Positions 21,621 to 21,761 of a stretch of DNA of 64,000 nucleotides are shown here, in pieces. Location: contig JALSIB010000043.1 of NCBI GenBank assembly GCA_026981855.1, positions 1 to 64,000 of the forward strand, read 5' to 3'. The position numbers and the translations under genes are program-made. Source of the stretch: Methylothermaceae bacterium. Its GTDB lineage: Bacteria > Pseudomonadota > Gammaproteobacteria > Methylococcales > Methylothermaceae. The notes below the pieces were generated by a model. That model saw only the letters and a program-made list of their open reading frames with translations. It did not search any database and was not told where the DNA came from. Each line of letters starts with the position of its first letter. Position 1 is the first letter of the stretch.

Positions 21621-21652
21621 AAAAAAAAGAGCGGGGCACCTGGCACCCGCTC
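21621..21652 (-). terminator. Intrinsic terminator upstream of nqrA
   Basis: Stem GAGCGGG/CCCGCTC (21629-21635 with 21646-21652) with a 10-nt loop, followed on the minus strand by eight consecutive Ts (21628 down to 21621). It would stop both the predicted small RNA and readthrough from the ferredoxin gene before nqrA. Confidence 0.8.
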
Positions 21653-21713
21653 AAACCCTTCCCAGAGGATAAAATGGCTGAAATGTCCTGCAATCACGAC
21701 AGGAAGGAGGCTA
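21621..21713 (-). ncRNA. Candidate FNR-controlled small RNA
   Basis: An RNA of about 93 nt is predicted from a class II FNR promoter (start near 21713) to a strong intrinsic terminator (T tract ending at 21621). No convincing reading frame lies in it. The 5' end is AGCCUCCUUCCUGUCG, carrying two C-rich stretches complementary to Shine-Dalgarno sequences. It can fold through CCUG/CAGG and CCUUCC/GGAAGG pairings before the terminator stem. Oxygen-regulated promoter, C-rich unpaired 5' seed, short length and U8 tail together resemble Hfq-type regulatory RNAs such as FnrS, although I see no sequence homology to it. Alternatively it is an attenuated leader with no trans function. Confidence 0.5.
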
Positions 21714-21720
21714 TGGGTTT

Positions 21721-21761
21721 AGAATAACGCATGATGCGAAATGCGTTTTGATCCAAATCAA
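21721..21761 (-). promoter_or_regulatory. Perfect FNR box with class II -10 element
   Basis: TTGATCCAAATCAA (21748-21761) matches the FNR/ANR consensus TTGAT-N4-ATCAA perfectly. On the minus strand TATTCT (21721-21726) falls at -13 to -8 if the box is centred at -41.5. The site begins 66 nt after the ferredoxin stop. There is no gene on the plus strand for it to serve before lhr, more than 700 nt away. Confidence 0.68.

Follow-up and report, generated by a model that had tools for sequence, protein, structure and literature searches.

FnrS of Enterobacteriaceae (Durand and Storz 2010; Boysen et al., cited in PMC3032703) is, as far as the account in PMC3032703 goes, a short intergenic RNA with a class II FNR site at about -41.5 and an intrinsic terminator, the regulation of which was measured. 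A non-enterobacterial FnrS-type RNA with class II FNR box, -10 element, and terminator was described in Neisseria gonorrhoeae and termed the functional equivalent of FnrS; its expression was followed by RNA-seq and with a lacZ fusion (PMC3032703). In Pseudomonas aeruginosa, the low-oxygen RNA SicX is activated by the FNR homologue Anr. SicX, found in Pseudomonas, stimulates ubiUVT translation, a function proposed to be Hfq-independent (PMC10247376). The non-coding RNAs given for a Methylomonas transcriptome are only rnpB, 6S RNA, SRP RNA, and tmRNA (PMC6373157). Our literature search, the coverage of which was incomplete, found no FNR-dependent small RNA in methanotrophs. Aerobic methanotrophs dwell at oxic-anoxic boundaries, where they curb the release of methane, and to our knowledge their retuning at low oxygen is poorly known.

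We analyzed a window of 64,000 nucleotides, i.e., positions 1 to 64,000 of contig JALSIB010000043.1 from a Methylothermaceae bacterium, for which an initial annotation had proposed an unannotated FNR-controlled small RNA beside the nqr operon. This proposal gained support from a conserved unit, a four-cysteine FNR in the genome, and the lack of an Rfam match. The unit is almost certainly a real, conserved RNA gene, and we consider it very probable that a stand-alone gene at this locus encodes an FNR-activated, low-oxygen-induced, trans-pairing regulatory RNA of about 93 nt in methanotrophs (Methylococcales). The architecture resembles that of enterobacterial FnrS and of the gonococcal RNA, and the predicted low-oxygen activation by an FNR-type protein resembles that of SicX. 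The RNA differs from FnrS, as far as the latter is described in the source, in its core, hosts, and genomic position, and its regulation is deduced from sequence comparison whereas that of FnrS was measured. To the gonococcal RNA no sequence relation is known, the two being compared by description, and SicX is likewise set apart by description. Since no Rfam family matches, the RNA is, judged by its sequence, a new family among FNR-activated small RNAs and not a member of FnrS; the FnrS-like layout with unrelated sequence that had been noted earlier thus stands. After enterobacteria and Neisseria, this would be one more lineage in which an RNA has come under FNR, apparently independently.

A predicted FNR-dependent transcription unit upstream of nqrA

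Read on the minus strand, all coordinates given in the initial annotation hold, i.e., those of the FNR palindrome (21761-21748), the -10 element (21726-21721), the terminator (21652-21621), and the C-rich segment, and the approximately 93 nt between box and terminator are free of genes. The features in window coordinates are as follows.

21748..21761, minus strand: FNR-type palindrome TTGATTTGGATCAA, predicted class II activator site; TTGAYN4RTCAA in 8/8 genus homologues and all verified homologues of other families
21721..21726, minus strand: -10 element TATTCT, exactly 21 nt 3' of the FNR box; TAnnnT in 8/8 of the genus
21621..21714, minus strand: predicted small RNA gene of about 93-94 nt, its start placed 7 nt past the -10 element
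about 21702..21710, minus strand: 5' C-rich segment CCUCCUUCC (CCTCCTTCC in DNA), complement of the Shine-Dalgarno-like GGAAGGAGG; genus-specific
21659..21682, minus strand: conserved core UUUCAGCCAUUUUAUCCUCUGGGA, containing AUCCUCU, which is common to all lineages and is the complement of AGAGGAU
21621..21652, minus strand: intrinsic terminator of the small RNA GAGCGGGTGCCAGGTGCCCCGCTCTTTTTTTT, stem kept through pair changes
21555..21598, minus strand: presumed separate nqrA promoter TTGTCC ... TGaTCTAATAC of the extended -10 type, kept in 8 genomes
20112..21470, minus strand: nqrA, with which the nqr operon (sodium-pumping NADH dehydrogenase) begins; neighbor outside the RNA, start at about 21470
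21827..22219, minus strand: 2Fe-2S ferredoxin-like gene, upstream neighbor, followed by a terminator-like hairpin (21781-21765)

In the proposed mechanism, FNR would bind the palindrome at about -41.5 when oxygen is absent and would recruit RNA polymerase to the -10 element with no -35 element involved; transcription would stop at the intrinsic terminator. On its upstream side, the FNR box adjoins the terminator-like hairpin (21765-21781) that follows the ferredoxin-like gene. A frameshift in this upstream ferredoxin gene was considered and rejected, as the relatives end at about the same place.

Taken singly, the elements are not exceptional. The 2.75-Mb genome holds 12 perfect FNR boxes, with none found for the reversed control, so that a box alone is not rare, and the terminator motif alone occurs at chance level (3 found, 2.4 expected from a shuffle test). 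The case for the locus hence rests on conservation. The stability of the single-RNA fold is not unusual either (z = -1.45). Neither the window nor the RNA of 14 homologous loci has an Rfam match that reaches the gathering score, i.e., the gene is absent from this catalogue. Weak Rfam matches, among them the L20 leader, had E values of 0.12 or worse and were taken as chance; FnrS was not among the weak matches up to E = 5.

Conservation within the genus

The whole unit, i.e., box, -10 element, RNA, and terminator, lies upstream of nqrA in eight of the ten genomes of the genus, our own included. All eight have a TTGAYN4RTCAA box with TAnnnT placed exactly 21 nt behind it, and in each RNA CCTCCTT comes first, then TTTCAGCCATTTATCCTCTGGGAAGGG, and lastly the terminator. 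The locus is raised above chance because these genomes keep all parts at the same spacing. Joint conservation of box, seed, and terminator was also the point on which the initial annotation had made the RNA depend, and the unit is kept together in these eight. The mean majority fraction per alignment column was 0.88 in the box, 0.61 in the spacer, 0.83 in the -10 element, 0.84 in the RNA, and 0.90 in the terminator; it was 0.60 behind the terminator and 0.81 in the presumed nqrA promoter. One pair of the terminator stem varies between G-C, G-U, and A-U in the genus alignment with pairing maintained.

The two remaining genus members, G001 and G009, are without the RNA, although both have FNR. 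The nearest named relatives of the nqrA in our genome are Methylothermaceae metagenome-assembled genomes and Methylohalobius sp. SKW56, which places the host among the methanotrophs of Methylothermaceae. In SKW56, a degenerate core remnant GGCCATTTATCTCTCAGGG is found about 160-250 nt upstream of nqrA (L011); having neither FNR box nor terminator, it looks like a decayed copy of the RNA.

Relatives in other families of Methylococcales

A covariance search in related genomes had been suggested with the original proposal, and it returned relatives in other families (family and genus numbers below, such as f4, f7, or g12, are those assigned by the search tool). A covariance model of the RNA only, without promoter (R1), gave weak matches to three further loci in two other families. 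All three have an FNR-type palindrome and, after exactly 21 nt, TAnnnT, though the model held no box. A second model (R2) together with the core pattern led to 12 Methylococcaceae-type genomes of family f4 (g4, g15, g17, g23), all with box and core and with the -10 element at 21-23 nt from the box, as read by eye.

We moreover searched with the promoter pattern FNR box-N21-TANNNT-...-ATCCTCT and used the reversed pattern as control. It matched 48 of 311 Methylococcales genomes, compared with 0 for the control: 8/10 genomes of our own genus (g1), 2/2 of f7, the genomes G082 and G102, 35/37 of g12, and G050. The G050 match (L173) has no terminator and was taken as chance. Carriers thus amount to at least 59 of the 311 genomes (47 + 12). 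Among 350 sampled Gammaproteobacteria, the pattern was found only in our own genome and the reversed control matched once. Every verified relative carries an FNR-type palindrome. Core matches without FNR box (L148, L153, L154, L157, L169, and L170), some of them clearly in coding sequence, were taken as chance, as was L128, likewise without box. A conserved, putatively FNR-driven RNA in dozens of species, including 35 of 37 genomes of one genus, is a directly testable regulator, and the RNA is probably a low-oxygen regulator of methanotrophs.

The RNA of g12 has promoter, ATCCTCT, and terminator in common with the RNA of our genus and differs in its 5' part, which forms a hairpin of AUGUCR...YGACAU with a UUUCCUACC loop. 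In this hairpin, two pairs have changes on both sides; 4 of 500 shuffles reached its covariation score, which makes this a modest control. Several g12 members had been weakly matched by R2 (E 0.03 to 0.5) before any g12 sequence entered this model. Because of these prior matches and the shared promoter, ATCCTCT, and terminator, common descent of both RNAs appears likely.

The g12 RNA (L176, L187) begins with ATG and often contains a 9-codon frame, MSxxFLPxT, inside the 5' hairpin. This frame is probably a by-product of the stem; a leaderless mini-ORF is possible. Together with a 76-aa plus-strand ORF that overlaps the RNA in our genome, it is what could suggest that a short mRNA from one strand or the other encodes a small protein. 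We regard such an mRNA as extremely unlikely, however: the run of 2, 3, or 4 T in GCCA-Tn-ATCC shifts the frame between genomes, and because of such single-base length changes the 76-aa ORF is not kept in relatives. The g12 frame, moreover, is missing in some members, and its ATG and TGA ends sit in the covarying stem. Sequence anatomy and conservation instead describe a unit that is short, non-coding, and closed by an intrinsic terminator.

Relation to nqr and neighboring genes

The RNA might also be the 5' leader of the nqr operon, with FNR starting transcription and the terminator acting as an attenuator that lets some of it into nqrA. In the genus, nqrA is indeed the next gene in the same direction, with the terminator only 150 nt upstream of it, and in Methylococcaceae it is near the RNA. 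However, a leader would always lie co-oriented directly upstream of nqrA with no separate nqrA promoter, and a different arrangement was found. The promoter-like motif TTGTCC...TGaTCTAATAC between terminator and nqrA is kept in 8 genomes, and Methylococcaceae loci have TGnnnTAAT motifs resembling it ahead of nqrA. In f7, RNA and nqrA are separated by a gene of opposite orientation; g16, g33, and g12 carry the RNA elsewhere than beside nqrA. Moreover, the alignment has no conserved alternative (antiterminator) pairing. A leader is hence quite improbable. As nqrA in the genus has a presumed promoter of its own past the terminator, and as the RNA lies elsewhere in other lineages, we conclude that the RNA would be a stand-alone transcript; its link to nqr is, judged by the distribution of loci, old and frequent and not required.

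Neighbors of the RNA, named by sequence reading, are ftsH in G082 and a NifS-like gene in G102; in g12 it lies between Fur-like and ligase-like genes. At the f4 loci L130, L133, and L136, nqrA comes behind the small RNA, and on the other side of the RNA rnpB (RNase P RNA) lies at a distance of a few hundred bases.

Predicted pairing segments and targets

The segment AUCCUCU, invariant across lineages, is complementary to AGAGGAU. CCUCCUU, which 8/8 in the genus keep and f7 does not have, is complementary to AAGGAGG. Because of this complementarity, pairing with ribosome-binding sites is the natural reading. The genus segment UUUCAGCCAUUUAUCCUCU is also complementary to an idealized Shine-Dalgarno sequence with start codon, AGAGGAUAAAUGGCUGAAA. 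The RNA is likely to act by base pairing in trans: AUCCUCU in all lineages, and CCUCCUU in the genus, would bind by pairing to the Shine-Dalgarno regions of mRNAs, the translation of which would thereby be blocked, presumably with Hfq. The CCUCC and CCUUCC stretches named initially as seeds are kept within the genus only; the segment shared across families is AUCCUCU, farther 3'. In the predicted fold, CCUUCC is paired with GGGAAGG and may hence be less accessible as a seed.

The RNA could instead titrate a protein such as CsrA. The conserved core does contain UGGGAAGG, and our own RNA has an AGGA segment in addition; however, repeated ANGGA hairpin loops are missing, the conserved portion is rich in C and of anti-Shine-Dalgarno type, and the GGGA half is replaced in g12. 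We therefore consider titration very unlikely.

Searching the ten genomes of the genus for CAGAGGAT..ATG revealed no gene common to most carriers. The matches included a monothiol glutaredoxin only in G006, a hemerythrin in G001, which is without the RNA, and a roadblock protein in G003 and the RNA-less G009. In the ten genomes, matches to GAGG..ATGGCTGA were shared by two closely related members at most, and a truncated-haemoglobin-like gene was matched in G000 alone. For the nqrA leader, the predicted pairing (-39.2 kcal/mol) did not stand out from shuffled sequences (mean -40.1), i.e., there was no signal. The functional link to Nqr or iron-sulfur proteins that had been suggested from the neighborhood consequently found no support, with no conserved target and nqrA-leader pairing at chance. 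At the start of a truncated-haemoglobin-like gene (L373, G000:C18), found so in our own genome only, GAGGAGAATATTCATGGCTGA is partly complementary to the RNA.

We put forward more tentatively, as somewhat less than an even chance, that a hitherto undescribed, order-wide family of FNR-activated RNAs might serve gammaproteobacterial methanotrophs as their main post-transcriptional switch for oxygen. If so, an invariant AUCCUCU seed with a lineage-specific second C-rich seed would retune respiration or methane oxidation at low oxygen.

FNR as the predicted activator

Our genome encodes one FNR homologue with CX2CX5C and a fourth cysteine, scoring 210 bits with the NCBIfam Fnr model, just under the cut-off of 228. 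Nearly all RNA-bearing genomes encode a full FNR homologue, the exceptions being G021, a fragmented assembly with a partial match only, and G257, for which none is listed; several genomes have more than one homologue. A palindrome at class II spacing before the -10 element hence coexists in the host with an FNR that has the cysteines for an iron-sulfur cluster, and control of the RNA by FNR appears highly probable.

The motif TTGAYN4RTCAA is common across the Crp/Fnr superfamily. A real and regulatory RNA might thus be activated by another Crp/Fnr-type protein (Dnr/FixK-like), with NO or another non-oxygen signal, and the multiple homologues in several genomes as well as an altered recognition helix in the FNR of the genus would agree with this. 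But in our own genome a search for the Crp-type helix-turn-helix gave two proteins above cut-off, the four-cysteine FNR and a CRP-like protein without cysteines, so that another activator seems unlikely, and FNR is retained as the candidate. In the genus FNR (L291, G000:C60:84411-85130), the recognition helix GNYLDLALATVSR has Ala where two f4 FNRs have Glu (ETVSR), a position which we take to be Glu209 in E. coli FNR. The RNA box in the genus is still TTGAT-N4-ATCAA despite this Ala.

A further perfect FNR palindrome (L111:1501-1514, G000:C29:142786-142799) precedes the pmoC start at a distance of about 70-85 nt. As pmoC encodes methane/ammonia monooxygenase subunit C, this suggests a possible direct oxygen control of methane oxidation.
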